Origin: a virus
Length of the DNA: 52,555 bases
Virus record (IMG/VR): IMGVR_UViG_3300022602_003287
Coordinates: 1 to 52,555 of that record
Strand: one strand, 5' to 3'
Part shown: piece by piece, positions 14,265 through 41,812 of the stretch
Position numbering within the stretch: position 1 is the first letter of the stretch
Layout: the number at the start of each line of letters is the position of its first letter
The notes under the pieces: model-generated
The model's database searches: none
What the model was told of the DNA's origin: nothing
What the model saw: the letters and a program-made list of their open reading frames with translations, nothing else
Made by a program: the position numbers and the translations under genes

Positions 14265-14266
14265 CT

Positions 14267-14770
14267 TTATTTCCTTTTGTGTTTTGGTTTAGATTTTTTA
14301 ACAGCCATAGCCCATTTTAAAGTACTAACTCTGTCTTGGAATACGATCCCTTCTAGGTGATCTAGCTCATGGAGAAAACATTTACACTCGTAATCCCTAA
14401 ATTCTCCTTCTTGGAATTCTCCTGCACTATTTTGCCACCGTGCTTTTATCGCGGTAGGTCTTTTTATATTAACATAGATACCTGGAAAACTCAAACATGC
14501 CTCCTCCAGATCGTGTATATCATCTGTTGATGCTAACACTATAGGATTATAAAATGCCTGTGCGGCATCGGGGATATCTTTGTGTCCCATGACGAACATT
14601 CGGACTCGATGCCCTACCTGGTTGGCCGCTAGTCCCATGCCGTTGTTAGCAAACATGGTTTCTATCATATCTTTTTCAAGTTGTTTTGTATCGATGGATG
14701 TATCGCTGAAATCAAATTCAGGCATCCGTTCTCTTAATATGAGATCTGGAAAGTTGATTATTTTTAACAT
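14267..14770 (-). CDS. def: Peptide deformylase
   Basis: 167 residues with all three deformylase motifs: GMGLAANQ (44-51), EACLS (90-94, usually EGCLS) and HELDH (134-138). C92, H134 and H138 would bind the metal and E135 is the catalytic base. It removes the formyl group from new N-termini in the cytoplasm. It stands 2 nt from clpA and just after dnaJ. The Gly-to-Ala change in motif 2 is conservative. Phage deformylases are known from marine cyanophages; they probably help rapid processing of phage proteins. Confidence 0.95.
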   Translation of the reverse strand: MLKIINFPDLILRERMPEFDFSDTSIDTKQLEKDMIETMFANNGMGLAANQVGHRVRMFVMGHKDIPDAAQAFYNPIVLASTDDIHDLEEACLSFPGIYVNIKRPTAIKARWQNSAGEFQEGEFRDYECKCFLHELDHLEGIVFQDRVSTLKWAMAVKKSKPKHKRK

Positions 14771-14778
14771 AAAAATAT

Positions 14779-15609
14779 TTAAGCTATCGCTGACCGGATA
14801 GCTGATTTTTGTTGTTCGTTTAACTCTGCTGGTATCGAGAATTTTAACTTCAATAATAACCTACCTTTAAATCTAGGATCATTCATGTTAGGCATTCCTG
14901 CTCCTTGTATAGATAAAGTTTGATCAGGTTGGGTTCCTGGGTTTATTGTTATTTCTAATTCCCTATTATCGATAGTTTTTAACTTGATGGTATTCCCTAA
15001 TATAGCATCCCATACAGGTAAAGTAAGTTCGGTGACTAAATCATCTCCTTGTCTTGTAAAGATATTATGTGGATTGATCCTAACAGTTAGATGTATATCT
15101 CCTCTGGGAACTCCTTTTACTGTATCTTCGCCCATACCGGATAATCTCAATGTAGTACCATCTTGTATACCAGGGGGTATCTTTACACTTAACATTTGAT
15201 CAACACCGTCTGGGAGAGTTATATTGGCCAGCAACTCTTTTCCATAGAACGCTTCTTCTAGGGTGATTGTGGCCTGGGCATTAAGAGTTCTATTCCGAGG
15301 ACCGAAATGAGCGTGCCTTCCGAATATATCACCAAACGGATTACCTCCAAAATGCCTGAAGATATCCTCAAAAGGATTGCCACCTCCGAATCCACCGTGA
15401 TGGTGATGTTGTTGAGGCCCTCCACTATCATAGTTGCCTTTGGACCCGGGATCGCTTAACACTCTATATGCTTCTTCTATTTCTTGGAACTTTTGTGTAT
15501 CGCCGCCTCTATCCGGATGATGCTTACTGGCCATTCGACGATATGCCTGTTTGATTTCATCTTCGGATGCGTTTTTATTAATTCCTAGTGTTTGATAATA
15601 ATCAGTCAT
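14779..15609 (-). CDS. dnaJ: DnaJ-family co-chaperone, class B (CbpA-like)
   Basis: 276 residues. A J domain (about 3-63) carries HPD in [11 protein letters not shown] Gly/Phe/His-rich linker follows (about 64-105), then two beta-rich substrate-binding domains. The Cys-rich zinc domain of class A DnaJ is absent, and the length is close to CbpA. It would stimulate the host DnaK. It is the first gene of the dnaJ-def-clpA operon, preceded by a strong sigma-70 promoter, so expression is likely early. There is no clear Shine-Dalgarno before the ATG. Confidence 0.93.
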
Positions 15610-24441: not shown

Positions 24442-24963
24442 CTATTTTAAGAATTCTCTTATATCTAATCCATATTTGATACTGTCTATCTTATGGATTC
24501 CTATCAGATATAGCACATAACTGGCCACGCTACTTCCACGACCTACTCCCCATACTATATCATGATACCTCATGGTATCTATCAAGTATTTACAATATCG
24601 TAGAACATCGATCATATTATGTTGGCGGAAAAGCACTAATTCATCCTGCACTCTCTGCGTTTTCGTATCAGTATCACAAAGGCCCATAAGCCAGGTTTCT
24701 ATGTCTAGTTCTTTATAAACATCGTCCATAAACCAGTTTGATTGATTTTCCTTATCAAACTCTATGAGATCTACATCTAGTATCTCGTAGTGTTTTATCT
24801 TTGCTATAGGATCTGCGTTTAGTTCGATTGATCGATTAAACTGCTTCACAGTTTCTGTATCGCTAAACTCTAGAACGGACAGTGCAACTGGGGAGCCATT
24901 ATACAGCGCAGTGAAAGCATCATCACTGTTGACAGTCGCCCTACCAAACTGGTCTGTTTTCAT
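24442..24963 (-). CDS. DNA polymerase III alpha (DnaE)-derived fragment
   Basis: 173 residues. GVGRGSSVASYVLYLIGIHK (139-158) followed by DSIKYGLDIREFL matches the DnaE stretch PGRGSGAGSLVAY...DPL.F.L.FERFL. Residues 100-137 match the helix just before it. The protein stops where DnaE continues to the catalytic PDxDxDF motif, so the polymerase acidic residues are missing. It is therefore not an active polymerase. Similar stand-alone fragments occur in other aquatic T4-like phages, so it has likely been kept for a new function such as DNA or nucleotide binding. Confidence 0.75.
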   Translation of the reverse strand: MKTDQFGRATVNSDDAFTALYNGSPVALSVLEFSDTETVKQFNRSIELNADPIAKIKHYEILDVDLIEFDKENQSNWFMDDVYKELDIETWLMGLCDTDTKTQRVQDELVLFRQHNMIDVLRYCKYLIDTMRYHDIVWGVGRGSSVASYVLYLIGIHKIDSIKYGLDIREFLK

Positions 24964-25498
24964 TCTTGCCGCCTAAAACTACTTTGGGTTCGAATCGAGT
25001 ATTTTGTGTTTTAACATCTTCCCAGCTAGGAAACCCATCTATGTCATTGGTTTCTAGACTGTTGTTGTTCCACCAACTGCTGTTGTTTAATATTTTATTA
25101 CCCGTATCCACAGTATATTTTACACGATCCCCTAGCTCGCTGTCAACCGTTATCTGTGTAATAGTGATATCTTTATCTAGTATACTACTGAATTTATGGA
25201 AGAGCACAGATGCTAATATATAATCGGTTGGTTCTTCTGGAAGCTGTACGGTGGTAGTTTCTAACGTATCTAGTTTAATAAGGAATGGATGACCTTCTTT
25301 GATCAAGATGGAGTTATTAAGATAGAGCTTGATAAAATGCTTGAGCTTTTTAAATCCATTTTTTAATATATCACTATCAGATCCGTTAGGAAACATTGAT
25401 ATTTCTATATTGTATTGATTTGGGTATATATTATTTTCTATTACTAGGGAACAACTAAAATTTGTAGGCCATGTAAATGTGTTATTACTTGTTGACAT
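24941..25498 (-). CDS. Unknown phage protein, possibly structural
   Basis: 185 residues, Asn/Ser/Thr-rich with beta character (TFTWPTNFSCSLVIENNIYP). A middle helix pair and a polar C-terminus with WWNNN follow. It overlaps the DnaE fragment by 23 nt and the previous gene by 14 nt. Downstream of the fibre genes, so late expression is likely. No family recognised. Confidence 0.5.
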   Translation of the reverse strand: MSTSNNTFTWPTNFSCSLVIENNIYPNQYNIEISMFPNGSDSDILKNGFKKLKHFIKLYLNNSILIKEGHPFLIKLDTLETTTVQLPEEPTDYILASVLFHKFSSILDKDITITQITVDSELGDRVKYTVDTGNKILNNSSWWNNNSLETNDIDGFPSWEDVKTQNTRFEPKVVLGGKNENRPVW

Positions 25499-25736
25499 TT
25501 ATTAAATCATCGAAATTCTTATCACCATTCCTAGTAGCTACTGACATCGCCTTGGCATTTTTAGCACTAAGTTCTTGTTTAAATCCTTCTATAGCTACTA
25601 ATATCTGTTGACACAATCCACTATTTCCTGATCTAGCGGCTATGAAATATTTCCTAGTTAGTTCAGAAATCTTACTATCTAGTTGTTCAGCGCTTAGGTC
25701 GCTCACATCATTGAATAAAGGATTATACGTTAGCAT
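25485..25736 (-). CDS. Small helical protein
   Basis: 83 residues, nearly all helical: LSAEQLDSKISELTRKYFIA then CQQILVAIEGFKQELSAKNA. Similar proteins occur beside DnaE-like fragments in other marine T4-like phages as I recall. Overlaps both neighbours by 14 nt. Function unknown. Confidence 0.55.
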   Translation of the reverse strand: MLTYNPLFNDVSDLSAEQLDSKISELTRKYFIAARSGNSGLCQQILVAIEGFKQELSAKNAKAMSVATRNGDKNFDDLINVNK

Positions 25737-26367
25737 TCCATGTTCCTACCAACTGCACCCATATGTTGTATCCAGCATCTGAACTCCATACATCCCATAT
25801 CTGTCTCGTTCCGGGTTGATATGCTGTAGGATATACTCCGGTACCTTTATCAATATTTCCGATGAAATAGATACTGGCTGTACTAAGACTTTGGTTAGTA
25901 TTAAATGACACGTTCCATGTAGCCGAGTTTACTACTCCATATGCTACCAGTTCAAATCTTAACTTTCCTACCGTACCAGACTGAGGCCACCCTTGTATAT
26001 TAAACTGTGTGCTAGTACTGATAGATGCTACGTAATAGTTTGCTGTGCCATATGTTATCGTTGGAGATGCATTATTGAGGATATTGTTATCCTGTCCCCA
26101 AGCTCCTGTGCCATATCCTGCATAAGCATCAACTGAATCAGCATTATTAGAAAACACAGCATTGCTGACAAAGTTACCATTAAAGTTAGTAGCGGTATTA
26201 GTCTGTACAGAATAAAGTTGTAGGTTGGTTATTTCATAGGCAGCCTGAGTAAAACTAGTCTGAATATAATTAAAGTTGTCTCTAAAACCTTGGCTGTCGT
26301 TGTCTACGCCGGCGACCGGATATAGGGTATTGATTATGTTAGAAGTAGTAGTTATTTGGCTTGGCAT
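25723..26367 (-). CDS. Virion fibre or tail-associated protein
   Basis: 214 residues, rich in Asn, Thr, Ser, Gly, Tyr, and low in Lys. The N-terminal GVDNDSQGFRDNFNYIQTSF resembles the N-terminal DSIRTAFEKAN piece of the 2030-residue fibre, a common docking motif of phage fibre proteins. The rest is beta-rich. An ATAAATA late box lies 24 nt upstream. Probably a small tail-fibre or baseplate adhesin. Confidence 0.65.
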   Translation of the reverse strand: MPSQITTTSNIINTLYPVAGVDNDSQGFRDNFNYIQTSFTQAAYEITNLQLYSVQTNTATNFNGNFVSNAVFSNNADSVDAYAGYGTGAWGQDNNILNNASPTITYGTANYYVASISTSTQFNIQGWPQSGTVGKLRFELVAYGVVNSATWNVSFNTNQSLSTASIYFIGNIDKGTGVYPTAYQPGTRQIWDVWSSDAGYNIWVQLVGTWNANV

Positions 26368-26403: not shown

Positions 26404-28122
26404 TTACCTGGCACCCGTTGTACGTCTTGGATAAGCGGCCCCAGACTTAGGTCTAAACCCGTAATTTTCTTTAGGGAAACTAGATCCAGTTTTTAAGACT
26501 TTGTACAATGATGTACCCACCGGCACACCCAATCCTGTTACAGCATCCCAACCTACTGTAGAATTGTAACCCTGCACATATACGGCATTATATCCCGATA
26601 CGATATCATAAAACGCCGAAGGATTGGCATATAGAAAAGGATTGGCAAATCCTATCCTTTTTCCAGTTAGAGCATTTAATCTAGCTATCAAACCTGCTAC
26701 CATAGGAGTGGCCGCGCTTGTGCCACCGTACTGGACGTAACTATTGCTAGACCCTTCATAAAAGGTATATCCTGTATAAGGATCAGAATTTCCTGCTACA
26801 TCGGGAACTCCTCTTACAGCTAATGAAATAGGACTTCCAAAACTTCCACCTGTGGTGGCGGTAGTATAATATAATCCAGCTTGCCAACTAGGTAGTGACT
26901 GATATATGCTTTGTCCACCCCCCGATCCGTTCCATACTACTTCGCTTGACCTAGTCACACTGTTTTGGGCAGTAAGCTGTATAGAGGTTCCTCCCACTGC
27001 TGTGACGTAGCGACTAGATGCCGGATATTCAACTTCGGGCACATATCCTGCCCATGTTGACCCATTATCGCCACTACTAACAACGATGGTGATTCCTAAT
27101 ACAACAGACTGTGCTAATACCGCTTCGGTAGCGGACACAGTGCCGGCTGACCAATAACCATCAGTAGCATAGTTTTCACCAGCCCCCCAGCTAGTGCTGA
27201 GCACGCTAGGATTATTCACAGTATCATGTATCGCTGTATTAAAGTTATTGTACCAATTCGGTCCTGCTGTAGGGCTACTGGCTCCTGCTCCATATCCAAA
27301 ATACAACACCATTTTGCACAGTGGAGCCGATCCCCAAACGCAGTAGATATCTAACATGACTTCTGGAGCACCACCCGATTCAGTGGGATCGTTGACTCCT
27401 CCGTCTGTAAAAACATCAACTGTATCTACTCCTATTATAGGAACTCGTGGCATAGTAGCGCCGTTGACAGGAATATTCTGAGTGAAGGTACTGGTTAGAT
27501 TGTTTTGAGTATATCCACCTCCCCATTCCATGATACCTACAGTCACTCCATTAGCATCATTGCCGGGGTAGTTGTAGACCGCTGCCAGCTGCCATGTTGC
27601 TACAGCACCGGTGGTTTGAGGAATACTAGCATTCGTTATTGTGCCTTTATTTCTTTTTATTCTTACTGACTGATCTAGACCTAATACATATTCTACTACT
27701 CCGTGTAGAGTAGATGGGATATTTACTGGACCCGAGTGACTGATGAATGTTGTAGTAGTGTTGGTATAATCAGTTAATATAACTCCAAACGCAGAATTTA
27801 TCTGTAGAGCAGTTCCTGATAGTTTTATAGTGGCACTTGGCGTATGTATTTCTTCGATAATAAATCCCACAGTACTGGCAAAGTCTTTGATTAGATTAAT
27901 ATGGTTTTCTGAGGAACTAAATCGAGAACTAAATTCTTCGTATGATAATATAGGATTTTGTCCTGCTATTATGCTGTCGGCATACTCTGTAACTGATTCA
28001 GGACGATTCAGCATAATGTTAAACTTGATTATTGTATTATGATCAGTAGGAGCCGTCGATACTATATCGGTATAGTTATTAGGAGTACTGCTTGCTAAAC
28101 TAACAGTAGGAGTGAGGATCAT
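26404..28122 (-). CDS. Sedolisin-family (S53) serine-carboxyl protease in the fibre operon
   Basis: 572 residues. A pro-kumamolisin-like activation domain (about 30-155) precedes an S53 catalytic domain. Catalytic residues are in place: E254 and D258 in GAPEVMLDIYC, D352 in SSGDNGS, and S469 in GGTSAATPM. The C-terminal YDIVSGYNA...GWDAVTGLGVP matches the family's calcium-binding end. No signal peptide is visible, so the enzyme would be assembled on virions or released by lysis, not secreted. It lies between tail-fibre genes with a 0-nt gap to one. Sedolisins work at acid pH; here it may mature fibre proteins or degrade host surface proteins. The active site appears complete. Confidence 0.92.
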   Translation of the reverse strand: MILTPTVSLASSTPNNYTDIVSTAPTDHNTIIKFNIMLNRPESVTEYADSIIAGQNPILSYEEFSSRFSSSENHINLIKDFASTVGFIIEEIHTPSATIKLSGTALQINSAFGVILTDYTNTTTTFISHSGPVNIPSTLHGVVEYVLGLDQSVRIKRNKGTITNASIPQTTGAVATWQLAAVYNYPGNDANGVTVGIMEWGGGYTQNNLTSTFTQNIPVNGATMPRVPIIGVDTVDVFTDGGVNDPTESGGAPEVMLDIYCVWGSAPLCKMVLYFGYGAGASSPTAGPNWYNNFNTAIHDTVNNPSVLSTSWGAGENYATDGYWSAGTVSATEAVLAQSVVLGITIVVSSGDNGSTWAGYVPEVEYPASSRYVTAVGGTSIQLTAQNSVTRSSEVVWNGSGGGQSIYQSLPSWQAGLYYTTATTGGSFGSPISLAVRGVPDVAGNSDPYTGYTFYEGSSNSYVQYGGTSAATPMVAGLIARLNALTGKRIGFANPFLYANPSAFYDIVSGYNAVYVQGYNSTVGWDAVTGLGVPVGTSLYKVLKTGSSFPKENYGFRPKSGAAYPRRTTGAR

Positions 28123-29460
28123 TTATCCCTCCATCTTTAGAACGGTTAATGTTACTGTTATATTGGCTGAGGCTGCTGTATTGTTATAGATTTTTACAGG
28201 TATATTAGTTGTAGGTATCGTTTCACTACTGAATCCAATAATAGCAGGAGTAAACAAAGTTGTAGCAGACTGTGTTGTGATAGCTTCTGCTATGACTCCA
28301 CTACCGGGAGTCGGATCTGAAGTTATAGATCTACTAAAATCTGCTCTCATAGTAGCTGTTGAGCTATACAATGTTATCCAAGCTCCTGTGCTTACCGCTA
28401 TACTGTAAAGGGCATATCCTGCATATGCTACTATCGTGGCGGTTACTGCGCTTAGACCACTGAGTGAATTCACGGTAACTGATGCGGTAGATCTATTATT
28501 AGTTCCTCCACTACCTGATGTATTCCAGATAGTTATAGCCCCTGACGAACCACTTATTGCTGTTCCTGTACCTGCTGTAATACTTGTAACACCACTACTA
28601 CCCCCAGTCCCTGTAGTCCAGATCGTTATAGCTCCTGTTGAACTACTTATTGCTGTTCCTGTACCTGCTGTAATACTTGTAACACCGCCACCAGCGAATA
28701 GCACGCCGTTTTGATATAAGTTGCCGCCGAAGTTAATATTTCCTCCTGCGCTAATTCCACCAGATACCATCAATGCCGAACCGGTCGAAGTACTGATACT
28801 AGAAGCGGTTGATTTTACATGTAGAGTATTTCCGAACCATCCACTTTTACCTATACCAATGCCACCTGTTGTTACAAGGTCTCCAGTGGTTGTACTGGTA
28901 CTCTCGACTCCGGCAATGATATAAACTGTTTGACTATTAGTACCACCAGTCTGGATATTCTGTGCCAGCAAAGCTATAGTAGCTAATGTAGCTGAACTTA
29001 TAGAGGCTCCCTGTACATTGAGTGTTCCTGTTGGAAGATTAATGTTACCACCTATCCATGCATCTAAAGCTATTCCGGCTCCTCCTGCTACCTGTAAAGC
29101 ACCTGTATTGGTTGAGTTAGAAGCATTTGTAATATTAGATATCACAAAGGTAGTGGTGGTTCCAGTACCGCTGGCTATAGGACCGCCCCCATTGGTTCCT
29201 GTGCTAATAGCATATCCATTAGAATAGATAGTTCCTCCTACGTACAGATTACCTCCTATTCCGGCACCTCCTACTACCTGTAATGCTCCGCTATTACTTG
29301 ATGTCGATGGTTGAGAATTTAATACTATAAGTTGGCTAGTTTGATAATTTACTCCATTGGTTCCTCCTACCCATTTTACTCCGTCAAATGTATATGCGAC
29401 TCCATTGGGGCCTACATATATTTGACCTACGTATGGAAGATTGGGAAAGTTTAAAGCCAT
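28123..29460 (-). CDS. Tail-fibre protein with GALQVxGGAGI repeats
   Basis: 445 residues, Gly/Ser/Thr-rich. Repeated units of the form [S/T]TGALxVxGGxGIxGNLYVGG occur at least four times, followed by two almost identical copies of GVTSITAGTGTAIS.S.GAITIW. This is typical of trimeric beta-structured phage fibres. The C-terminal 110 residues have no repeats and may be the receptor tip. Strong AAAGGA ribosome-binding site. It is followed immediately by the S53 protease gene. Confidence 0.8.
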   Translation of the reverse strand: MALNFPNLPYVGQIYVGPNGVAYTFDGVKWVGGTNGVNYQTSQLIVLNSQPSTSSNSGALQVVGGAGIGGNLYVGGTIYSNGYAISTGTNGGGPIASGTGTTTTFVISNITNASNSTNTGALQVAGGAGIALDAWIGGNINLPTGTLNVQGASISSATLATIALLAQNIQTGGTNSQTVYIIAGVESTSTTTGDLVTTGGIGIGKSGWFGNTLHVKSTASSISTSTGSALMVSGGISAGGNINFGGNLYQNGVLFAGGGVTSITAGTGTAISSSTGAITIWTTGTGGSSGVTSITAGTGTAISGSSGAITIWNTSGSGGTNNRSTASVTVNSLSGLSAVTATIVAYAGYALYSIAVSTGAWITLYSSTATMRADFSRSITSDPTPGSGVIAEAITTQSATTLFTPAIIGFSSETIPTTNIPVKIYNNTAASANITVTLTVLKMEG

Positions 29461-29473: not shown

Positions 29474-31807
29474 TTACAATGATATGATAGACATGGCCGC
29501 AGAGAAAGCCTGTGTTGCTAGTTTTTTACTACCGGCATAGGCGTTATTGCCTACATATAGATTACCACCTATTCCCACACCACCATTTACAACTAAAGCA
29601 CCTGTAGTACTTGATGTTGATGCTGTAGATGTTGTGATAGATACAGGTAAGCTGTTTACGGTTAACATGGCACCAGTTGTAGCGGAAAGGGTTGTAATAC
29701 CTCCAAGGCCTATTATTACCTGACTTAATGTATTGATATACAATGGGATTGTGGTTATACCAGTATTAGGAGTATTTTGTACTATAGCGAATGTGCCTAC
29801 TTGCGTAGTAGTAGATCCTACAGTAAAAAATCTCATACCGGCTGCGTTGGTGCCGATAGTACTATAGTCAAAATAGGCATAGCTATTCCTACCTAAGGTA
29901 GTCGTCCCATTGCCGCTTACAGATACTCCACCGACTGCTTCTACAGCATTAGCACTGCTGTAGATAGGGTTATTTAAGTTGCTGGCATTTATTATCAAAC
30001 TAGTTCCGTTGAATCCTATCGAGTTACTGAAAGTTGTAAGTCCAACAGCACTCTGATAAGGTATTTCATATTGTGCCCCACCTGCCAAGTTAGTGGCTGT
30101 ATTAGAACTTCCAGGACTGTTATTGATCCAAGTTGGACTGCTTCCTGGGCCATTACTGCTTAATATCTGTCCAGGAGATCCGAAGTTGTTTATGTTTGAT
30201 CCAATAAACAAAGCACCTGTCCCTGTGAATCCCATCTTGACAGACCCATTGCCGTCGGCTAAGATCACAGTACCTGTATTAGTCGCTATACTGGTAGCGG
30301 TATATGATCCAATGACTACATTGCCTACTCCGGTAGTAATACCAGATCCTGCTTGATATCCTATCGCGATGTTACAACACCCGGTGGTATTGGAGTATAG
30401 GGCACTATAGCCTAATGCTAGATTATTACTTCCTCCGGTATTAGAATATAAAGAACAAGCACCTACCGCAAAGTTATTATTTCCTATTATGTTGCTATAA
30501 AGACTGTTATATCCTAAGCCAACATTGCAAGAACCCGGAACATTATTGTTTAACGATCCTTGTCCTAGACCGATATTATTATTACCGTATGCAGTATTCT
30601 GTAGACTGCATACTCCTATAGCTATATTGTTGAATCCTGTTTGGCTTCCTGCTAATGACAAGCAACCAATAGCTAGATTATTATAACCTGTAGTATTTGA
30701 ACAAAGAGCACTGTAACCTAATGCTATGTTATTATATCCATTAGTATTAGTTGATAGAGCATAACAGCCGATAGCGATGTTTCCAGGTCCGGATGATGCG
30801 AGATTAGCAGGATAGGTTAGTAACAGAGAACCAGTTACATTAAGATTGAATGCTGTTTTTTGTACAGTATTATCTGGAAATACAATACTGCTGGTTATTG
30901 TTTCTGTATTAACATATATATTGTTAACGATCTCAGTATTGATAACTTGTAGATTATTAGGTAATACCAATGTTCCGGTATTGCTGATATAAACAGTCCA
31001 TGTACCGTTGATTAGATTACTAGCTGAAGTAGCATAGGAAGCAGATGCTCCTCCTAGTGTTCCATATATAGTTCCTCCTACATATAGATTTCCTCTTATA
31101 CCTGCTCCTCCTGCTACTAACAAAGCGCCAGTGGTACTATTGATAGATGACGAAGTGTTCTGTATAGAAAATGTTCCTGTAGTAACACCAGTATATGGAT
31201 TAAATAAAGTACCATTTTGATATAGATTACCATTAAAGTTAATATTATTGCCTACGTTAATATTTCCCGAGACTCCTATTCCTCCAGAGACTACTAAGGC
31301 TCCTGTCGTAGTTGAAATAGATGGTATATTACCTATGATTGATAGATTATTAGTTAGAGTATAAGAATCAGTTGGATTTATTCCAGGACTCGCATCCACC
31401 CATTGATAGTTGTAATAGACATACAATCTTCCACTATTTCCATCATACCATATATCATTTTGTTTATTGACAGTAGGAGTACTAGTGCTTAGTATTAGAT
31501 TAGCTACATTTCCGCCGACGTTTAATGTTCCGTCTCCTGCGACAGATAGTCCTGTACCTGGTTTTATAGCGCCTACGGTAGAACTAGTAGCTATTAATGG
31601 AGTTCCGTTAATATCAGTATAATATAATACAACATCTCCTTGTTTACCTGCCACAGACCTAACAGCGATGGTGTTTTCAAAAAACGGAGTTAATACATTA
31701 AAAGTGGTTTGTTTTGTTGTAGGTACGCCAGTACTAGGGTCCACTACCAGCAGAATCGTCGCTGTTGTGACTGTTGTTAAAACGGGCAGATTGCTAATAG
31801 TTGGCAT
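29474..31807 (-). CDS. Large tail-fibre protein with YadA-head-like 17-residue repeats
   Basis: 777 residues. The first 230 residues contain a docking domain and GALVVSGGIGVSGNINVGN-type repeats shared with the 445-residue fibre. A middle run of about ten 17-residue units (GYNNIALGYSALCSNTT and similar) resembles the left-handed beta-roll repeats of YadA-type trimeric adhesins. Many units carry a Cys. A C-terminal module again has TTGALVVNGGVGIGGNLYVG. Likely a trimeric fibre shaft and adhesin. Confidence 0.82.
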   Translation of the reverse strand: MPTISNLPVLTTVTTATILLVVDPSTGVPTTKQTTFNVLTPFFENTIAVRSVAGKQGDVVLYYTDINGTPLIATSSTVGAIKPGTGLSVAGDGTLNVGGNVANLILSTSTPTVNKQNDIWYDGNSGRLYVYYNYQWVDASPGINPTDSYTLTNNLSIIGNIPSISTTTGALVVSGGIGVSGNINVGNNINFNGNLYQNGTLFNPYTGVTTGTFSIQNTSSSINSTTGALLVAGGAGIRGNLYVGGTIYGTLGGASASYATSASNLINGTWTVYISNTGTLVLPNNLQVINTEIVNNIYVNTETITSSIVFPDNTVQKTAFNLNVTGSLLLTYPANLASSGPGNIAIGCYALSTNTNGYNNIALGYSALCSNTTGYNNLAIGCLSLAGSQTGFNNIAIGVCSLQNTAYGNNNIGLGQGSLNNNVPGSCNVGLGYNSLYSNIIGNNNFAVGACSLYSNTGGSNNLALGYSALYSNTTGCCNIAIGYQAGSGITTGVGNVVIGSYTATSIATNTGTVILADGNGSVKMGFTGTGALFIGSNINNFGSPGQILSSNGPGSSPTWINNSPGSSNTATNLAGGAQYEIPYQSAVGLTTFSNSIGFNGTSLIINASNLNNPIYSSANAVEAVGGVSVSGNGTTTLGRNSYAYFDYSTIGTNAAGMRFFTVGSTTTQVGTFAIVQNTPNTGITTIPLYINTLSQVIIGLGGITTLSATTGAMLTVNSLPVSITTSTASTSSTTGALVVNGGVGIGGNLYVGNNAYAGSKKLATQAFSAAMSIISL
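30281..30790 (-). repeat. About ten tandem 51-bp (17-residue) repeats
   Basis: Consensus G-x-N-N-I-A-[I/L]-G-x-x-[S/A]-L-x-x-N-T-[T/x]. Units begin GPGNIAIG, GYNNIALG, GYNNLAIG, GFNNIAIG, GNNNIGLG, GSCNVGLG, GNNNFAVG, GSNNLALG, GCCNIAIG and GVGNVVIG. The left edge is approximate. Confidence 0.8.
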
Positions 31808-31810
31808 TTA

Positions 31811-34084
31811 TCACTCCAGATATATATTGTAACCATCTTCTGTAAACAACTCATAGCCATCTGTGGTGCTTGTTGTTACATAAGATAAGCTCTGACCTAG
31901 ATTATTACCGGAATTGTCTTTAGTTGGGAACATCAAATATTTAGCGCCCGAGTATGTTAAGTTATCCTGTAGAATAAATCTATCGATAGAGAAGTCTATG
32001 TTGGTAAAATCAAAGCCAGATTGTGCTATTTTTTCTACTATCGTAGCTCCATTTCCTGGCAGTGCGTAGCATAACGGGGCTACAGTTACATAGCCTAATG
32101 GATTTCCTGTGCTGATCTGTATGGTCCTCATGAACCTAGGCAGCTGATACTCGTCAGTTTTAACCTTGCTTCCTTTGATCAACATATTCTCAAACTGTGA
32201 TTTCATGTTTAATATATTATTAAGATAAACCATATGCCCATTTATATTGATAGGGCCAGTGGGCCCAGATCCGTTAGATAACTGATCTATTATGGTAACA
32301 TAGACTACGTCATAGACATAGTTTCCTTGGCTATCGTTAGCCTGGCTGTAACTGACATTACCAAAGAAGAATCTCCTCCTAGAAAAATATTCAACCAGTG
32401 TTTCTGTAAAATAGTTGTCTAGGGCTGATTGTTCTATTCCAAATTCTATATAAAGTTGCAGTTTCTGTTGTATTCCAAAATAACTATCATTAGGTCGATA
32501 CATTATAGCAGGATCAAATGTATATGAATTATTAATAAAATCTTTGTAAGCAGATCTCTGACCTTTAGGTAGTAGAGGCTGGGCATATATCTGTGTGTAC
32601 TTGGTTAGATCATTCCTTACTACAGCGATACGGAAACTAGAAGTGCTAACACCATTTTGATATATATCTCCTACTCCTACGACAAAATTCCAATATTTGT
32701 CTATAGTGGTCTCTCCGCCATCTAAAATAAGAAAATTAGGTGTGGGTGTAGGCCCGTAAGGTCCATCAAAACATGTGACACTCTGATAACTGACTCTACC
32801 TTGTATATCTCCATTATCGGCTAATGTCAGTCCTGGGGGTAACTGCCCTGATACTAATGTAAATAATAGAGGTGATTCTAGATAAACATATTCTGCCTTG
32901 ATGCTTAGTTCGCTAATATATCCAGGAGTTATCGTACCGACTGTAGATGTAGTGAGATATTTTATACTGTCATTCAATACGCCTTTTATCGTTATGGTAA
33001 AGGTGCGCGGGCTTATATTTTGATTTTTTGTCTGTATATCAACTTTTACTACGTTTACTGTAAAACTATATGTTAGATTAAATGCCGGTTGATAAGGAAT
33101 GGCAGCATACAGTACTCCTGTATTAGGATCTAGATTGAAATTTGGAGGACGTATGCTAGGGCTACCGTCTTGATTTAGTACAGGAGTCAACCAGTCGTAT
33201 AAAACTGGACCTATATAAGATTCAAAATCATAAACGCTGAGTTTAATGGATAAGTTATTATTGGCCTTGACCACTCCTAGATTAGCAGGAGTTAGCCATT
33301 GCGGGGCTAATAGATAGTCACTATCAGTACTATAAGCAGTGGTGTCGACATCTATAAAAGTATTATCTACTCTAAAGTTATTAGGATCTTCAACCTTAAT
33401 AGCAAAATACTGTCTGCTGATTAATGTACCATCAGTGACACTTACATAAAACTGATAGGTCTTAGGTATGTATCTAGGAGTAGTACTGAATGTCGAGCCG
33501 GATAATCCCACATGGTCGTAAGGATATTCATCATAGGGTTCTTCATCGTATCCCCCTATAGCACTAGCTAGATAGTTAATCAACAGTACATCTTTAATCT
33601 GTCCGGTTATGCGACCAGAAGATAATAAGGTCAATCCAGGAGGTAACGTTCCATCATTATCTCCTATGTAATAGGTGAGAGATCCGTTAGTTGGTAATAC
33701 TGGTTCATGTGCGTTTAGTTGATAGTCAACAAACTCTCCATTCAGTGTATAGTATGTACCAAACAAGCCCGCGGCTAATAGACCGCTAGGAGTGATCCAT
33801 TCTGGACCAACATGCCCTACCGTGAGCATATTAAAAGTTTGATCGCTAACGCCTTGTGAGTTTGATGCTCTTACAGTAAACTGACTATAGGTAGTTTGAC
33901 CGATAGAGAAAGGTCTGCCATATATCGTTCCTGTGGATGAAAATAACAAACCGGATGGCAGTTTACCGTTTATGATATCATAAGATATACCATCACCGCT
34001 GGCAGATACATAGGTAGATGTATATATCTGTTGTGTGACAGTCCCTAGGAATCCTGCCGGGGTTTGCCAGATCGGAGCTGTCAT
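31811..34084 (-). CDS. Tail or baseplate protein with putative-Ig (He_PIG) domains
   Basis: 757 residues. At least three He_PIG-like modules are visible by their LP.GL.....G.I.G motif: GKLPSGLLFSSTGTIYGRP, GTLPPGLTLLSSGRITGQI and GQLPPGLTLADNGDIQGRV. The C-terminal third is different and has no repeats (QLYIEFGIEQSALDNYF...). Such domains often decorate virions and help adhesion. It is 3 nt from each neighbour in the late fibre operon. Confidence 0.75.
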   Translation of the reverse strand: MTAPIWQTPAGFLGTVTQQIYTSTYVSASGDGISYDIINGKLPSGLLFSSTGTIYGRPFSIGQTTYSQFTVRASNSQGVSDQTFNMLTVGHVGPEWITPSGLLAAGLFGTYYTLNGEFVDYQLNAHEPVLPTNGSLTYYIGDNDGTLPPGLTLLSSGRITGQIKDVLLINYLASAIGGYDEEPYDEYPYDHVGLSGSTFSTTPRYIPKTYQFYVSVTDGTLISRQYFAIKVEDPNNFRVDNTFIDVDTTAYSTDSDYLLAPQWLTPANLGVVKANNNLSIKLSVYDFESYIGPVLYDWLTPVLNQDGSPSIRPPNFNLDPNTGVLYAAIPYQPAFNLTYSFTVNVVKVDIQTKNQNISPRTFTITIKGVLNDSIKYLTTSTVGTITPGYISELSIKAEYVYLESPLLFTLVSGQLPPGLTLADNGDIQGRVSYQSVTCFDGPYGPTPTPNFLILDGGETTIDKYWNFVVGVGDIYQNGVSTSSFRIAVVRNDLTKYTQIYAQPLLPKGQRSAYKDFINNSYTFDPAIMYRPNDSYFGIQQKLQLYIEFGIEQSALDNYFTETLVEYFSRRRFFFGNVSYSQANDSQGNYVYDVVYVTIIDQLSNGSGPTGPININGHMVYLNNILNMKSQFENMLIKGSKVKTDEYQLPRFMRTIQISTGNPLGYVTVAPLCYALPGNGATIVEKIAQSGFDFTNIDFSIDRFILQDNLTYSGAKYLMFPTKDNSGNNLGQSLSYVTTSTTDGYELFTEDGYNIYLE

Positions 34085-34087: not shown

Positions 34088-37000
34088 TTATAATCTTCCT
34101 ACAACGACTTCTATTATACCTTCTTCACCATCAAAATCTTCTAGGGCCTTTCCTATGACAGTACCTAATCTAGGATCCGGATCAGACATAGCATAACCTC
34201 CTCCTGCTGATACCAACATATCTCCCTTCTTGATAGGTCCCTTTACTAGGCATGGAACTCGACCTTGTAATGCCAGTGCTATAACATTGGTGCCGGTTAA
34301 GGCATCATTCATCCTAAATGCTGGATCAGTAGATACTACACCTGCTACTGCACGTGTACCTGTCGATGCTATAGTCACTTCACAAACTCCTCCGAACTGT
34401 AATACCGTGCAGGGTTTATATCCGCAGTCGGCTTGATAGTTCTCTGCCAAGTCAGCATATCGAGCACTAGTAGCAACACCTATAAAACAACCACTAGCGC
34501 TGAAACAGCAACCTGCGAAAATAATACAGCAGGAAGATCCTGCTACACCCGCATTAGCTGCATAACTTGCAGTTGCCGCATTACCACAGGTACAACTAGC
34601 CCATCCTGCGCTTCCTGCGTATCCTGACACTGAGGAAGAGCAAGCACAGCAAGCACAGCCAGCACAACTAGCACATCCTGTTAGGGCGGCTGTGATAGTG
34701 CCTGCGGCAAAGTTTCCTGACGAATCTCTACATACTATAACATTACCGGCATTAGTACAGGTCGCGCATACAAACCAAGTAGCTGCCGCTCCTCCAGTAT
34801 AAGAACAGGCTCCAGCGCTGGCACATAAACCAGTTCCTGCGCTTAGGCTGAAACATACACAACAGGCTTTGTTAACTATTAAAGTGCTTGGACTACACAT
34901 AGTGATCCAGCCATAGCATGAACAGAAATATGTGCTGTCTACGCTACTTAATCCTAGACTCTGTTGAACAAAACTATTAGGAGCTGAACTACAACTTGTA
35001 GCGCAACACAAAGACAGCTTGCTTTGTAGAATAGCCGCATTTGAACATACCATGGCATTAGTGATGGTATTGGCATTGATGTAAACTTTGACTCCGTGTC
35101 CGGTCCTAGCAAATCCTATATCACTTGTATTACATACTGTAGCATTTATGATCTGGCAGGTTGAACACCATATAGGAGTATTTGATGTGGTATTAACACT
35201 AAGACTACAACTGCTGACAAGCAACAGATCTGTATCGGTTGGTGTAGCCAGACTGACGTCATTTAATACTGCAAACTGTTGACCTTGATCTACATATCTT
35301 TTAGTGGCTGCTCTGCTGCCGTCATTACCGACTACTGGATCTCCATTCAGTATCAATCCACCGGTCATTACACCATAGCGAGGAGTTATTATTCCTGTAG
35401 AGCTATCAACAGTACTGGTACCAGCTAGACTTATCTTGGTATCTGCGTAACCTTTATTGACTGCATCTAGTAGGCTTCCTCCAGTAGTAGTAGTGGTAAG
35501 ATTGATTATCTGTCCCGATCCTTGAGTTAGCCCACCTCCCTGCATATTGATATTTCCATTGTTCATCAATATGCTATTGCTATTCATATTAAGTGAACCG
35601 GTCATCTTCTGTAAACCTGTTAGATCAAGGAATCCTGGACCAATCTTGGCTACAGGAGTGTTGTTTGTATCTAACCCTAATCGATGATTGATATAACCGA
35701 TTACCGCTGTTTGTACAGGTACGGTACTACCGCTGGCTTCTCCTAAAGTATCATCTTGGCTAAACTCATTAACCAATACTCCTTTCTGGAACTGTAATCC
35801 GCTGACTCCTGAAAGATTAATACTGGCGTTAATAGTAACTGCTCCAGATGCTTGGTTAACGCCAAAGAAATCTCCTACCTTAAAGTTACCGTCTTGGTCA
35901 GTTGTTACAGCAAATACACGACCTTGACCGATAGCAGTCCTTTCGTTGGCACTATTGGGTAGTTTGGTACTAGGTCCATAGATATCATTTGGGAACCTAG
36001 CGGTGTCATACCCGCCGACTCCGATGTTGAACATGTCAGCACCGGTAGAACGCACTGTTGATATCTTTGTATAGATGCTGGCAGTTGATAGATATCTTAC
36101 ACCTGCTGGAAGCCTAACATTAGAATATGGGTTACTTAAGAAATAGTTAGTAATGGTTGAAACCAATGCCGGCGTAATATTGACAGTATCATAAGTAAGT
36201 CCGCCAGTGGCATAGGTATAGCCGGTGATCCTATGTATGACTCCAGCCCATGAGAATATGTATTGAGTAGCGGTGTTAGAAACGTTATTCAATAATCTTA
36301 GACCATCCCCTGTACTAGTACTAAGTGGATTGATACGTATGACTGTACTGCTGGCTGTAGCGATATAAGTCGTGCTATTCCAGGTAGTTAATCCTACATA
36401 GTTATAGGGATTACTAAATGACAGATCGCTATAACCACTAGTAGCCGAAGTCACATCTACCACTGAAGCTACAGCATAACTCGATGTAGAATCAGAAAAT
36501 ATAGTAGCAACTAGATTTGGATCTATTAGGTTTCTCCTATTTAATCCCTGTACATAAAACTGACTCTGACTTCTTACAGTTATGATAGTACCGCTATTGA
36601 CGGGACTGGCTAATCCAGTTACTCCGCCTACTAGAGATGTAGCTAGGTTTAACTGTAATAGCCACCCACTTGAATTAGTCACAGTATTGGATACTGTAGT
36701 AGCGCTGATAACATTGTATTGTTGTATGCCTAGATATCCGTTGGTGTTGGCTCCGGCTAGTTGTCCGTAGTTTATTTCTACCTGAGAGTTAGCATAAACT
36801 GATATATCTGGATAGTAGTTTGCACCTTGAGAAAGGCTAGTTGGATTTCTTACGAATAAAGTAGTCGAACCGGTATTGTTGCTGGCATTTATACCTCCAT
36901 ATAGTGCTGACCAGTTATAGTTGACAGCGGTCGCTGTCGAAACCATATCATACTGCAGAGTAACCTGTGTAGGAACTTCGTCAGGATTAGCACCTTCTGC

Positions 37001-40000
37001 CTTTAGAGCGAAATCACCGAAAGCATTACTGCCGTTAAGACTCCTAATAGATCCGCCATTCTTTGAATAATAACCTGTATGATTATAGTAAGTGAATACA
37101 GATACCAGTTCAGCTGTACCGTTATTGATACTGATGATACCGTATCCAAGGTCGTTCATCTGCGTAAAATCGGCAGCGATCATACTCTTGTTTCCAGGAG
37201 TACCTAAAACTATGGTGCTGGGCGGATATCCTATAAATCCTTGTTTGATACTAGCGGTGCTGATATAAAAACTGCTAGCATTGGTTACAGGACTACCTCC
37301 TTGGAAAAGCACTCGTATTGGATTAACGTATCCGCTGCCGGGGTTAGTAATAGTAATAGAAGTTACTGTGCTTCCTGTTAGATTGGCAATACCGGCTGCG
37401 GTATGACCGGCAGCTTGATCTGGTGCGCTGAATATAACTGTAGGGGTTCCGACATATCCACCACCACCGCCAACTGTGATAGGTATGGTTCCAGATGGAT
37501 ATGCTATACCACCGCCCTGGAAATAAGGATTGATATTCAATACCGCAGTTCCGGCTACTTGATTATAGTTAGTTACATATGCTACCTGATATTGATTACC
37601 GAGATTATAGAATGTTACTGGTAGGTTGGGATTCCTAGCGTATAATCCTTGGGTAGGTGTAGGACTATAAACAGATATAGTAGTGGTTCCTAGATAGTAA
37701 GGACTGCTGACCGGAGCAACTGGTAGTTGTCCTACATATCCATCTATATACATCCCTCCTGCGAATATCTGTTGATTTATACTCTGGCTAAAACTCGTAG
37801 CTTTATATATGTATGGAGATTTAGTTAATATCTGACCTGCTGGATCAAATACACACATAAATCCTCCATGCCCTTGCACAGTAACTCCAGTAATAATATT
37901 AGCATCATTTAATAAGAACACATCCATCTGGCTGTTCTGTTTAGGAGTACTATTGATATTGGTAGGATCGCTTAGATAATGGAATCCATACTCATAACCT
38001 ACAGGAGCTAGACCTTGTCCTGCATTTGCTGGGCTGTTGTTAACTAATCCATCAAAGTTATTGTCTCTCCTGAAATAAAGATTGGCCCAAGGACTGGTAC
38101 TGGTTAAAGGAGCTGGTTGAACAATAACACGGCGGCTTTCTTCTCCTTTTAACGTGACGTTTGCGGCTAATCTTATAGGCAGCTGTTCTTGATATATACC
38201 ACTTTCTACTATGATAGCGATTTGTGGTTTTGGAATAGTATAAGAGAATAATACAGGTTCTCCTGGCACAAAGGCCGTTCCGGTATTGATCACATCATAA
38301 TATTCTACTGGTTTAGAATAGGTGTTTGATACCCATGCTACTATTTCAGCTTGTATAAAAGATCTATTGGCTTCTAATAAACGTGCGGCCCCTGCGGTAG
38401 TGGTATTAGCGGAAAGAACTAGGCTTATTGGAGTAGCTGTAGATGCCGCACTAGGACCATTCGTTATGATATTAGTGATAGTAGAAAGTATACTGGTCGC
38501 TGTATTGGCTTGAGAAGCACCTCCGACATAATATCCTGTTGTAATCTGAGACACTGCACTTTGTGAAGGACTAGGTATAGCTATTCCTTCTATGATATAA
38601 GGTATAATAGTTGACAACCTATTATATGCGGCTACGGTCTGTGATATCTCATAAGGAATATTAGTCGATGTGGTATATCCATAATAATAAACACCGCTTT
38701 GTATAGCCTGCCTATTGCCTCCGTATAGTGTATCAAAACTAACGCTGTCTACGATATAACCTATATCTCTAGCGCATTTGACTGAATCATAAGAAAATCC
38801 AGAAGATGTTGCTGTGATCCATGCGTTAACTTCTTGTTGTAAGAATGATCTATTGGCCTGCAGTTGGTTGTAGGCATACCAAACGGTAGCAGTGGTACTA
38901 GAGGTAATATTATTAGGAACTATCTGATTAGTAATATTATTAGTACCGTTATTCAATATGTTGATGATGACCTGTATGTCATTTGTTACTATCGAGGCAG
39001 CTGTCGCATCGCCTACTCCTCCCGGCCATACGGTCGGATTGGCACTTGAATATATAGGACTTATAGGTTGACCTTGTACTATCTTTTGAGCTAATAACTT
39101 TAGATAGTTTATAGCCGCAGTGGTTGTTGTGGCTTCTCCTGGAATGATATTAGTAGTGGTAGACGATTGATTATAATATTGTAGACCAGCAAAAGTTGCC
39201 TGGCTATTGTAAGTATTAGGAAACGCCAAATCAAACGCAACAGCATCGACTATTAATCCTGTATCTCTATAACAGGTCGCTGTGTTGAAGTTAGTAATAC
39301 CGATAGTGGTATAATCACCAAATGCTTCTATAAATCCAACCGCTGTAGAATTAGCACCATAGAAATATTGTCCAGGTCGTACATTTGGTGTAGGAACAGC
39401 TATATACTGGTCAGTACCTGATACTCCGTAATCTGCATAATCAAATAATATTCTAGTAGAACCGGGGATGGCTGGACTAGGAACTATGGCGTAAATCGTA
39501 GCGGTTACTATTCCGTTCTGATACGTCATGTACTGCTGATAAGAACTTAATACCGTACTGGCAGTATTAATAATATTCTGTGCTAATACAGCGGCATCGT
39601 TTATGTATCTAAATGCATAGGCTAAACTTCGTCCCCACTTGGAATTAGGTATCCCTGCGCTAGCAAACGTCTTGGTACCATTGGCTCCTGTGGCGCTGTA
39701 ACCGTTGGTGCTGACATATATATTAACTGTGCTATAGGGACTATTATTATCTACATAATATTTTGTAGCTAGGTCTTGCGGATTTAATGGATTAGCAAAG
39801 TTTGTAGCTAGGTATAAATTTCCGTTTAAGTTTGTAGATAATGTGGGATTAGTGTCGCTAAACAAACTGCTAGTTGTCGCATTTATGATCAACTGATTGG
39901 TAGAACTATTGACGATATAGATGCCACTACCAGCGGTTAATAGTTTTTGTGTTAAGGTATTTCCATAGTTATCTACAGCTAGTATAGTGGCTGTAGTTAT

Positions 40001-40180
40001 AGAACTGGGAATATAAACTTGGGGAGTATCTAAGAACTTGGTAAATCTCAGTCCTGTTCCGCCTGTTGAGATCTGATAAAGTTCTGCAAACATCGAGTTT
40101 GCTTTTTCAAACGCGGTCCTGATACTATCGCCGGTGCCGTCGTTGGCTTGTTGTCCAATATTGATAATTTGAAGTGACAT
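34088..40180 (-). CDS. Giant tail-fibre protein with Cys-rich segment and IMC-like C-terminus
   Basis: 2030 residues, the largest gene here. The N-terminus (NIGQQANDGTGDSIRTAFEK) is a typical fibre-docking domain. Two long related blocks follow with ARDIGYIVDSVSFD/ GLIVDAVAFDLAFP and PxxxG.YYYG. The middle is a beta-rich shaft. About 260 residues before the end carry over 30 cysteines. The last 125 residues (ARYADLAENYQAD ... STDPAFRMN) resemble an intramolecular-chaperone or G2-peptidase-like trimerisation domain. It is the first gene of the late fibre operon with GAGGAAT ribosome-binding site. Confidence 0.85.
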   Translation of the reverse strand: MSLQIINIGQQANDGTGDSIRTAFEKANSMFAELYQISTGGTGLRFTKFLDTPQVYIPSSITTATILAVDNYGNTLTQKLLTAGSGIYIVNSSTNQLIINATTSSLFSDTNPTLSTNLNGNLYLATNFANPLNPQDLATKYYVDNNSPYSTVNIYVSTNGYSATGANGTKTFASAGIPNSKWGRSLAYAFRYINDAAVLAQNIINTASTVLSSYQQYMTYQNGIVTATIYAIVPSPAIPGSTRILFDYADYGVSGTDQYIAVPTPNVRPGQYFYGANSTAVGFIEAFGDYTTIGITNFNTATCYRDTGLIVDAVAFDLAFPNTYNSQATFAGLQYYNQSSTTTNIIPGEATTTTAAINYLKLLAQKIVQGQPISPIYSSANPTVWPGGVGDATAASIVTNDIQVIINILNNGTNNITNQIVPNNITSSTTATVWYAYNQLQANRSFLQQEVNAWITATSSGFSYDSVKCARDIGYIVDSVSFDTLYGGNRQAIQSGVYYYGYTTSTNIPYEISQTVAAYNRLSTIIPYIIEGIAIPSPSQSAVSQITTGYYVGGASQANTATSILSTITNIITNGPSAASTATPISLVLSANTTTAGAARLLEANRSFIQAEIVAWVSNTYSKPVEYYDVINTGTAFVPGEPVLFSYTIPKPQIAIIVESGIYQEQLPIRLAANVTLKGEESRRVIVQPAPLTSTSPWANLYFRRDNNFDGLVNNSPANAGQGLAPVGYEYGFHYLSDPTNINSTPKQNSQMDVFLLNDANIITGVTVQGHGGFMCVFDPAGQILTKSPYIYKATSFSQSINQQIFAGGMYIDGYVGQLPVAPVSSPYYLGTTTISVYSPTPTQGLYARNPNLPVTFYNLGNQYQVAYVTNYNQVAGTAVLNINPYFQGGGIAYPSGTIPITVGGGGGYVGTPTVIFSAPDQAAGHTAAGIANLTGSTVTSITITNPGSGYVNPIRVLFQGGSPVTNASSFYISTASIKQGFIGYPPSTIVLGTPGNKSMIAADFTQMNDLGYGIISINNGTAELVSVFTYYNHTGYYSKNGGSIRSLNGSNAFGDFALKAEGANPDEVPTQVTLQYDMVSTATAVNYNWSALYGGINASNNTGSTTLFVRNPTSLSQGANYYPDISVYANSQVEINYGQLAGANTNGYLGIQQYNVISATTVSNTVTNSSGWLLQLNLATSLVGGVTGLASPVNSGTIITVRSQSQFYVQGLNRRNLIDPNLVATIFSDSTSSYAVASVVDVTSATSGYSDLSFSNPYNYVGLTTWNSTTYIATASSTVIRINPLSTSTGDGLRLLNNVSNTATQYIFSWAGVIHRITGYTYATGGLTYDTVNITPALVSTITNYFLSNPYSNVRLPAGVRYLSTASIYTKISTVRSTGADMFNIGVGGYDTARFPNDIYGPSTKLPNSANERTAIGQGRVFAVTTDQDGNFKVGDFFGVNQASGAVTINASINLSGVSGLQFQKGVLVNEFSQDDTLGEASGSTVPVQTAVIGYINHRLGLDTNNTPVAKIGPGFLDLTGLQKMTGSLNMNSNSILMNNGNINMQGGGLTQGSGQIINLTTTTTGGSLLDAVNKGYADTKISLAGTSTVDSSTGIITPRYGVMTGGLILNGDPVVGNDGSRAATKRYVDQGQQFAVLNDVSLATPTDTDLLLVSSCSLSVNTTSNTPIWCSTCQIINATVCNTSDIGFARTGHGVKVYINANTITNAMVCSNAAILQSKLSLCCATSCSSAPNSFVQQSLGLSSVDSTYFCSCYGWITMCSPSTLIVNKACCVCFSLSAGTGLCASAGACSYTGGAAATWFVCATCTNAGNVIVCRDSSGNFAAGTITAALTGCASCAGCACCACSSSVSGYAGSAGWASCTCGNAATASYAANAGVAGSSCCIIFAGCCFSASGCFIGVATSARYADLAENYQADCGYKPCTVLQFGGVCEVTIASTGTRAVAGVVSTDPAFRMNDALTGTNVIALALQGRVPCLVKGPIKKGDMLVSAGGGYAMSDPDPRLGTVIGKALEDFDGEEGIIEVVVGRL
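34465..35215 (-). other. Cysteine-rich segment of the giant fibre
   Basis: About 32 Cys codons in roughly 250 residues, including pieces such as TGCASCAGCACCACSSS and SSCCIIFAGCCFSASGCF. The first 1600 residues of the same protein hold only a few. Similar Ser/Ala/Thr-rich stretches in other fibres have Ser where Cys stands here. Boundaries are approximate. Confidence 0.85.
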
Positions 40181-40278: not shown

Positions 40279-41100
40279 TTACATGAATACTTCTTGTAAT
40301 TCTTGTTTGAGATCTTGGTAGGATAACAGATCTATAGCCTGATCTTGGAAGCTCTTGACCACTGTTTCTACAGCTTTTTCGGGACTTAGCCCTCTGCTTT
40401 GTAGATAATATATCTTTTCTATGTCTAGTTTTTCAGTCATAGACCCTATACTACTCTTGACCGAGTTACAGTCTGTATATATCTCGGGCTTGCTGAAACA
40501 GCGGCAGTTATCTCCCACAGTGAGATTCATATTCTCTACACTAGCTTCGCTGCCATTGCTGCCTTTACCTAATACCACGGTAGATTGATATACTGTTTGA
40601 CCATTATCGCTAGAGCGACCTAATATAAACTGACGACTGTTAGTTTGTTGATGCTGATGTATGACCCTGGTAACTATCTCAGTATCTCCTCCTACATCAT
40701 TGGTCATTAGGCCAAACGCATTAAATCCAGCTCCGGCTTCCATAGTTACCTGTATTATATGCTTGTTGAATTTACCATCTTTGACAAATATACCCAAGGT
40801 AAGATTACTGTTAGCCCTTAATATTATTTCGTATATGCAGACCTGCTGTAGTTTTTTATCAGCTTCATTTAGGACTAACAAATCAAGATGGCTATCTTCC
40901 CTCAGCTCAATCTTGATATTTTTAGCCAGCAAGTCCCGCTCATTGGGGTTCTGTCGCAAGGTCATATGTTCTTTAGCTCCAGGTACGACCTCTATCGAGC
41001 TAGCATCTACCATCTTGAATTCTTTTCCAAAGTACTGATCAGGAGTGAATGTCCAATCTGGGTCGCCTTTTTCAACTTTAAGAAAACTGTGTATAGCCAT
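40279..41100 (-). CDS. sufD: SufD-like Fe-S scaffold protein
   Basis: 273 residues, shorter than bacterial SufD (about 420). The beta-helix core is recognisable by repeated beta strands and by the C-terminal SSIGSMTEKLDIEKIYYLQSRGL, which matches SHGATVGQLDEEALFYLRSRGI of SufB/SufD. The family's His in SHG is Ile here. It overlaps sufC by 23 nt, so the two are made together. SufB is missing, so it may work with host SufB, compete with it or supply only part of the cluster-assembly complex. Confidence 0.82.
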   Translation of the reverse strand: MAIHSFLKVEKGDPDWTFTPDQYFGKEFKMVDASSIEVVPGAKEHMTLRQNPNERDLLAKNIKIELREDSHLDLLVLNEADKKLQQVCIYEIILRANSNLTLGIFVKDGKFNKHIIQVTMEAGAGFNAFGLMTNDVGGDTEIVTRVIHQHQQTNSRQFILGRSSDNGQTVYQSTVVLGKGSNGSEASVENMNLTVGDNCRCFSKPEIYTDCNSVKSSIGSMTEKLDIEKIYYLQSRGLSPEKAVETVVKSFQDQAIDLLSYQDLKQELQEVFM

Positions 41101-41806: not shown

Positions 41807-41812
41807 CGTAAT

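Follow-up and report, generated by a model that had tools for sequence, protein, structure and literature searches.

A gene in the tail-fiber operon of the window (the entire 52,555-base IMG/VR record, 40% G+C, which is probably a piece of a larger genome) encodes a peptidase of family S53, here called P0001. In the reading that we consider probable, P0001 is a self-processing and active enzyme of the sedolisin type, carried on the tail fibers of this large aquatic phage, where it cleaves proteins on the surface of the host or in the matrix around it. The observations behind this reading are the integrity of the enzyme, purifying selection, adjacency to a fiber gene, a shared C-terminal tag, and fusions.

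An S53 peptidase gene and its fiber operon

The earlier note had placed a sedolisin at positions 26404 to 28122. The positions hold, but translation puts the gene on the minus strand, where they form a single 572-aa reading frame, while the plus strand is riddled with stops. The features of the gene and its neighbors, all on the minus strand, are as follows.

26404 to 28122, minus: S53 peptidase gene P0001 (sedolisin/kumamolisin type), 572 aa, ATG start (translation, Pfam, PDB 1t1e, AlphaFold2 model)
27670 to 28059, minus: Pro-kumamolisin activation domain of P0001, residues 22 to 151 (PF09286, E 1.4e-14)
26488 to 27600, minus: catalytic domain of P0001, residues about 175 to 545 (alignment to kumamolisin)
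27361 to 27363, minus: catalytic residue E254 of P0001
27349 to 27351, minus: catalytic residue D258 of P0001
27067 to 27069, minus: oxyanion Asp D352 of P0001
26716 to 26718, minus: catalytic residue S469 of P0001
26407 to 26487, minus: C-terminal tag of P0001, residues 546 to 572, GSSFPKENYGFRPKSGAAYPRRTTGAR, predicted disordered (pLDDT profile, comparison with relatives)
28127 to 28132, minus: putative Shine-Dalgarno GGAGGG of the S53 gene, within the last P0002 codons (sequence)
28123 to 29460, minus: P0002, fiber protein directly upstream of S53, with a MALNFP-type N terminus, a variable shaft, and a C-terminal docking-type domain (sequence comparison)
28126 to 28506, minus: docking domain of P0002, C-terminal, about 125 aa, phrog_15343 type, all-beta (pLDDT 96)
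29474 to 31807, minus: P0003, virion structural protein (virion-structural PHROGs)
31811 to 34084, minus: P0004, He_PIG fiber protein (Pfam)
34088 to 40180, minus: P0005, 2030-aa tail-fiber protein (cyanophage tail-fiber phrog_9851)
25723 to 26367, minus: P0006, small protein downstream of S53 (homologue directly downstream of S53 in L010/L011)

By all features that can be checked from sequence and model, P0001 is a bona fide S53 member. The description of an intact sedolisin in the earlier note was borne out: E254, D258, D352, and S469 lie where it had put them and align with kumamolisin E78, D82, D164, and S278, and PDB pro-kumamolisin 1t1e matches residues 59 to 546 with E 5.6e-65. The prodomain (PF09286) and the calcium-binding end that it had described are also present, the latter with both side-chain ligands of the calcium site, D506 and D526, which are kept in 45/45 representatives of relatives clustered at 80% identity. 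Residues 4 to 545 of an AlphaFold2 model of P0001 built from 42 relatives (pLDDT 87.6) can be superposed on 1t1e (500 residues, Z 52.6, rmsd 2.1, 33% identity); the pLDDT profile of the model indicates low confidence or predicted disorder in the linker between prodomain and catalytic domain (165 to 170) and at the C terminus (547 to 572). Charged residues are scarce (D+E 6.5%). Chance is excluded as the source of these S53 features, and the enzyme is apparently active, judging by its sequence.

In Pfam, P0001 also matches Peptidase_S8 (PF00082, E 6.9e-10), a partial match that covers profile positions 99 to 254 only. We rejected assignment to the S8 subtilases because the Asp-His-Ser triad is not found and the active-site positions hold the S53 Glu/Asp/Ser set. 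PHROGs and NCBIfam returned no family for P0001 at the thresholds used.

The neighbors agree with the tail-fiber operon that the earlier note had described, with P0005 assigned to phrog_9851, P0004 to He_PIG, P0002 to phrog_15343, and P0003 to virion-structural PHROGs. The MALNFP-type N-terminal start of P0002 occurs in cyanophage proteins too. The S53 start directly follows the P0002 stop codon, and the location of GGAGGG inside the end of P0002 suggests that the two genes are translationally coupled. Downstream of S53, the gene order (w25723, w25485, w24941, w24442; window 24941 to 26367) is also that of L010 (11719 to 14016), L011, and L022, which makes the region part of a stable phage backbone.

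Several other parts of the window are worth recording. Positions 24442 to 24963 encode a 173-aa protein that is a full-length match to DNA-polymerase PHROG 11127 and is far below polymerase size, possibly a split or remnant gene. A SufBD-type core protein, a SufC-like ABC ATPase, and an Fe/Mn superoxide dismutase lie in series beside the fiber operon (40279 to 42411) and are phage-borne iron-sulfur cluster and oxidative-stress genes. A ClpB-like ATPase and a DnaJ-like protein, with a peptide deformylase-like gene lying between the two (all read from the sequence), together with a Pfam-identified ClpP (11988 to 15609 and 49694 to 50284), make up a chaperone and protein quality-control set. Finally, a small phrog_13657 protein (10956 to 11405) resembles by eye the gene that follows the docking-domain gene in L143 and L151 and is perhaps an alternative docking-domain partner.

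Viral relatives and the protease slot behind the docking domain

With P0001 as query, tblastn gave no match among 50,697 phage records, and neither did a single-sequence scan of viral contigs. That P0001 is a unique gene was nevertheless rejected, since single-sequence searches are insensitive and profile searches recovered viral relatives. A profile that included bacterial S53 matched 45 viral loci in viral contigs, and a phage-S53 profile found at least 114 S53 relatives there, the closest listed being 59% identical; the best 80 of these at least 114 were examined, and they are top-scoring matches and no random sample. The best P0001 matches in genome contigs are 32 to 38% identical. The search of other phage fiber operons that the earlier note had proposed shows S53 to be present in dozens of related phages. 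Non-independence of related contigs was handled by 80% clustering, some neighboring genes are hidden by contig ends, and L045 was left out of the locus set.

In a catalytic-domain tree, a branch with SH-aLRT 96 separates the sampled fiber-operon S53 sequences from the 30 bacterial ones and from the majority of the remaining viral ones; they are one phage-specific clade apart from bacterial S53. The earlier note had named mutated catalytic residues in relatives as a finding that would speak against an enzyme, but these residues are kept in all 80%-identity cluster representatives (E 47/47, D 47/47, D 46/46, S 45/45). Informative pairs of phage S53 have a dN/dS of about 0.09 to 0.17, and this low ratio together with the kept catalytic residues indicates that selection maintains an enzyme.

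Some phage S53 proteins have no prodomain (L144, L210, L029, L046, and L050). Three of these, L029:5392-6663, L046:8600-9871, and L050:9899-11143, are fiber-operon S53 with a C-terminal repeat of type VKTGSTTWSNVRAVW and no YPR tag, and the repeat is possibly a second kind of attachment tail. Other viral S53 genes sit outside fiber operons. The L031-L054 set (e.g., L031:9827-11167) consists of S53 catalytic domains that mostly lack a prodomain, commonly have proline-rich C-terminal extensions, and have intact catalytic residues; in the tree, the eleven best-placed of its sampled members group near bacterial S53 and are a separate viral recruitment of sedolisins. The fusions L301 and L298 and the 330- to 600-aa S53 proteins of L026, L027, and L031-L054 fall outside the fiber clade or are unplaceable and were not used.

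"Docking domain" is our own name for the C-terminal domain of approximately 125 aa in P0002, and docking is a role that we infer for it. P0002-type proteins have a variable shaft, collagen-like in some, and this C-terminal domain is common to all. In relatives, the docking gene almost always ends 0 to 1 nt before the S53 gene, and a docking-type fiber gene is present in 36/44 non-redundant complete S53 cases (80% clusters). P0001 relatives end, as P0001 does, with an SGxxYPR tag, which closes 34 of the 36 S53 proteins that have a docking gene (80% clusters); a few docked S53 proteins, L273/L291, are without it. Non-redundant complete cases from this S53-based search, which is independent of the docking-domain search below, divide into 34 with docking gene and tag, 2 with docking gene only, 1 with tag only, and 7 with neither (Fisher p 7e-6). 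Scored as G..[YFW]PR in the last 45 residues, a pattern defined after the sequences had been inspected, the tag occurs in 17/19 distinct docked S53 and 14/21 slot S8 proteins, compared with 1/1160 for the remaining ORFs at these loci, taken as background, and 0/64 for bacterial S53. Anywhere after residue 350, it occurs in 21/21 slot S8 proteins, where further domains follow.

Most of the cases with neither docking gene nor tag are fusions of 860 to 1551 aa, in which S53 comes first and is followed by Cadherin-like, Ig-like, or other C-terminal regions. In L244, L286, and L300, the fused C-terminal region is homologous to P0004 of the window (26 to 36% identity, E to 5.9e-88). S53 is encoded with, or fused to, tail-fiber proteins and is thus tied to the fiber either way, whether covalently as a fusion or through a tag next to a docking domain.

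The docking-domain search alone found more than 550 relatives, at least, in viral contigs. Among 79 docking-domain loci, which are top-scoring matches and no random sample, the next gene is S53 in 23, S8 in 41, and other or unclassed in 15, the last including L215, a fragment too short to class. L143 and L151, the loci closest to the docking domain of the window among those examined, have no protease behind it. The docking-domain model of P0002 has the same fold as the C-terminal domains of Synechococcus phage fiber-like proteins. Against the PDB, no specific relative of the fold was found; the top Z was 7.8, and the tied matches were unrelated beta sandwiches of many kinds, such as phage cement proteins and the jelly-roll domain of Tk-SP subtilisin. 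A tree of docking domains groups most of them by partner family, S8 or S53, yet takes 8 label changes overall; on its supported branches the S8 label has to change at least twice, with L150/L160 (S8) falling inside the S53 side. The tag that S8 and S53 proteins of the slot share suggests that the two kinds of enzyme are interchangeable there.

The slot holds S8 enzymes in marine cyanophages and also in further viral contigs. In the cyanophages, the gene behind the docking domain is annotated "subtilisin-like serine protease," otherwise named, or unnamed; we had considered these genes as the family of P0001, but Pfam shows S8 subtilases. A pattern scan had hinted at missing motifs, raising the idea that the S8 partners are pseudo-enzymes, which we rejected because the alignment shows the catalytic His, Asn, and Ser to be conserved; for the S-CAM1 type, the Asp column is ambiguous. 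Behind the slot S8 domain of Synechococcus phage ACG-2014h (L139:4904-7828), the polypeptide continues with weak esterase-like (AXE1/BD-FAE) matches and with a domain that resembles the baseplate-wedge tail-fiber connector (phrog_677); this phage may carry two enzymes on one virion protein.

An S8 enzyme of Synechococcus phage S-SCSM1 bears on location. Its gp144 has an N-terminal S8 domain with intact motifs and then a C-terminal extension, and both gp144 and the docking-domain fiber protein gp141 are labeled "(virion protein)" in the record. Mass spectrometry of CsCl-purified S-SCSM1 virions detected 45 proteins, including a carboxypeptidase and a glucosaminidase (PMC9602691). In the record, the label is carried by the carboxypeptidase and by a "lysozym," apparently the glucosaminidase of PMC9602691, and is missing from several structural genes, so we take it to mark detection by mass spectrometry. 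Because gp144 is untagged and its gene has no docking gene next to it, it supports a virion-borne S8 enzyme and not the S53-docking pair itself.

Proposed function and competing explanations

We propose that the fiber gene P0002 and the S53 gene would be translated together and that the prodomain would guide folding and then be removed by self-cleavage, as is known for pro-kumamolisin. The disordered tag would bind the C-terminal domain of P0002, a contact to which their co-occurrence points, or another part of the fiber, so that the mature protease would be displayed on the virion through a flexible tether. During adsorption, it may then act on proteins at the surface of the host or in the matrix around it, as a protein-cleaving counterpart of polysaccharide depolymerases. 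S8 and S53 enzymes would be interchangeable in this one socket. Three points count against this reading: a few docked S53 proteins have no tag, some phage S53 proteins have no prodomain, and the sedolisins characterized so far are acid enzymes.

The earlier note had offered two functions, trimming of fibers and digestion of host surface layers. We favor digestion outside the phage over trimming because the docking domain is found with S8, S53, or no protease behind it, because S53 is fused to adhesin repeats, and because an S8-bearing homologue is labeled as a virion protein. The main rival is nonetheless a form of trimming, in which the S53 or S8 enzyme, much like a prohead protease but for tails, cuts the neighboring fiber or another tail protein during assembly and the tag serves only to bring the enzyme to its substrate. 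Strict adjacency and the embedded ribosome-binding site fit such a dedicated enzyme-substrate pair, and docking domains partly cluster by partner family. We nevertheless judge fiber maturation unlikely, as two families of different specificity stand behind one conserved domain, that domain is in some loci not followed by a protease at all (as in L143 and L151, noted above for their closeness to the window), and fusion to long adhesin proteins suggests permanent display, not a transient assembly enzyme.

Lower still is the probability that the protease acts inside the host or after lysis, degrading host proteins for nutrients or serving as an antihost factor, and is co-transcribed with fiber genes by chance. 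Large phages do carry other proteases, such as the ClpP of the window, and the viral S53 genes outside fiber operons would fit; the conserved slot, the common tag, and the adhesin fusions make this reading improbable, and acid sedolisins are generally ill-suited to a neutral cytoplasm. It is also conceivable that the S53 or S8 fold is simply a fiber tip or adhesin in which catalysis is irrelevant. Phage fibers often recruit enzyme folds as binding modules, and the S8 homologues of the S-CAM1 type, whose Asp position is not cleanly aligned, carry the name "tail fiber protein." The absence of any lost catalytic residue in 47 S53 cluster representatives and the retention of His/Asn/Ser in the slot S8 set make such a purely structural role very improbable.

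Beyond the proposed fiber-displayed protease itself, a general arrangement can be imagined in which the docking domain is a socket, the SGxxYPR tail a plug, and S8 and S53 proteases interchangeable plugs swapped across families to arm the fiber. We hold this broader reading tentatively, and with it the corollary, for which we would likewise stop somewhat short of even confidence, that the fiber stays unchanged and carries S8 in the sea and acid-active S53 in some other waters. S53 and S8 carriers share samples at least twice (3300027749 and 3300037189), so a habitat split is not strict. Contig names give IMG sample numbers, some of which may be those of bog lakes, a point given no weight here. 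Should most S53 carriers stem from acidic water, exchanging S8 for S53 would fit the enzyme to the pH of its habitat.

Relation to known systems and implications

P0001 has in common with pro-kumamolisin 1t1e and MEROPS S53 the prodomain and catalytic fold, the Glu-Asp-Asp-Ser residues, and the calcium-site aspartates. It differs in its phage fiber operon, its own clade, its disordered SGxxYPR tag, and its few charged residues. The best BFVD structure matches to the S53 model (TM 0.70 to 0.73) are the sedolisin-like proteins of the giant viruses Barrevirus (A0A3G4ZQ87) and Homavirus (A0A3G5A7D9), but these belong to eukaryotic giant viruses and are 26 to 27% identical to P0001. The known S8 counterparts of P0001 are those of Kyanoviridae (phrog_9158 and phrog_15006; S-WAM2 gp058, S-H38 QPB07966, P-SSM2 PSSM2_297), none of which was recovered by tblastn of P0001. 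As with P0001, the S-WAM2 and S-H38 types occupy the slot behind a docking-domain fiber gene, with 1-nt spacing, and as in phage S53 the Kyanoviridae enzymes have a C-terminal tag (that of S-WAM2 ends in GERTSGMTFPRPRMYHQA) and intact catalytic residues. They differ from P0001 in their S8 Asp-His-Ser set, compared with Glu-Asp-Ser in S53, and in their N-terminal part. S-CREM1 and S-RSM4 are further marine phages in which the protease is of the S8 kind.

Virion-associated depolymerases and tailspike enzymes are displayed on the tail apparatus and presumably clear a path to the surface of the cell (PMC5380687). They cut polysaccharide or peptidoglycan, usually within the spike polypeptide, whereas P0001 is proposed to be a separate, tagged, protein-cutting subunit. 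Literature searches found no paper on a phage S53 enzyme or on a tagged protease-fiber pair. This agrees with the statement in the earlier note that no phage S53 enzyme has been characterized, and uncharacterized viral S53 proteins are common in IMG/VR. The tagged S53/S8 slot behind a fiber gene appears to be undescribed in the literature searched.

Sugar-cutting enzymes on phage tails are well known; a conserved, tagged protein-cutting subunit behind a fiber gene is common as well, given that viral contigs hold at least 114 relatives of S53 and upward of 550 of the docking domain. The slot accounts for the genes annotated "subtilisin-like serine protease" that occur in the fiber clusters of cyanophages, and its short tag and domain pair may serve to attach enzymes to phage fibers. 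That one tag persists while two peptidase families replace each other illustrates modular evolution cleanly, and the system makes it testable how large aquatic phages, including cyanophages, pass the protein layers on their hosts.
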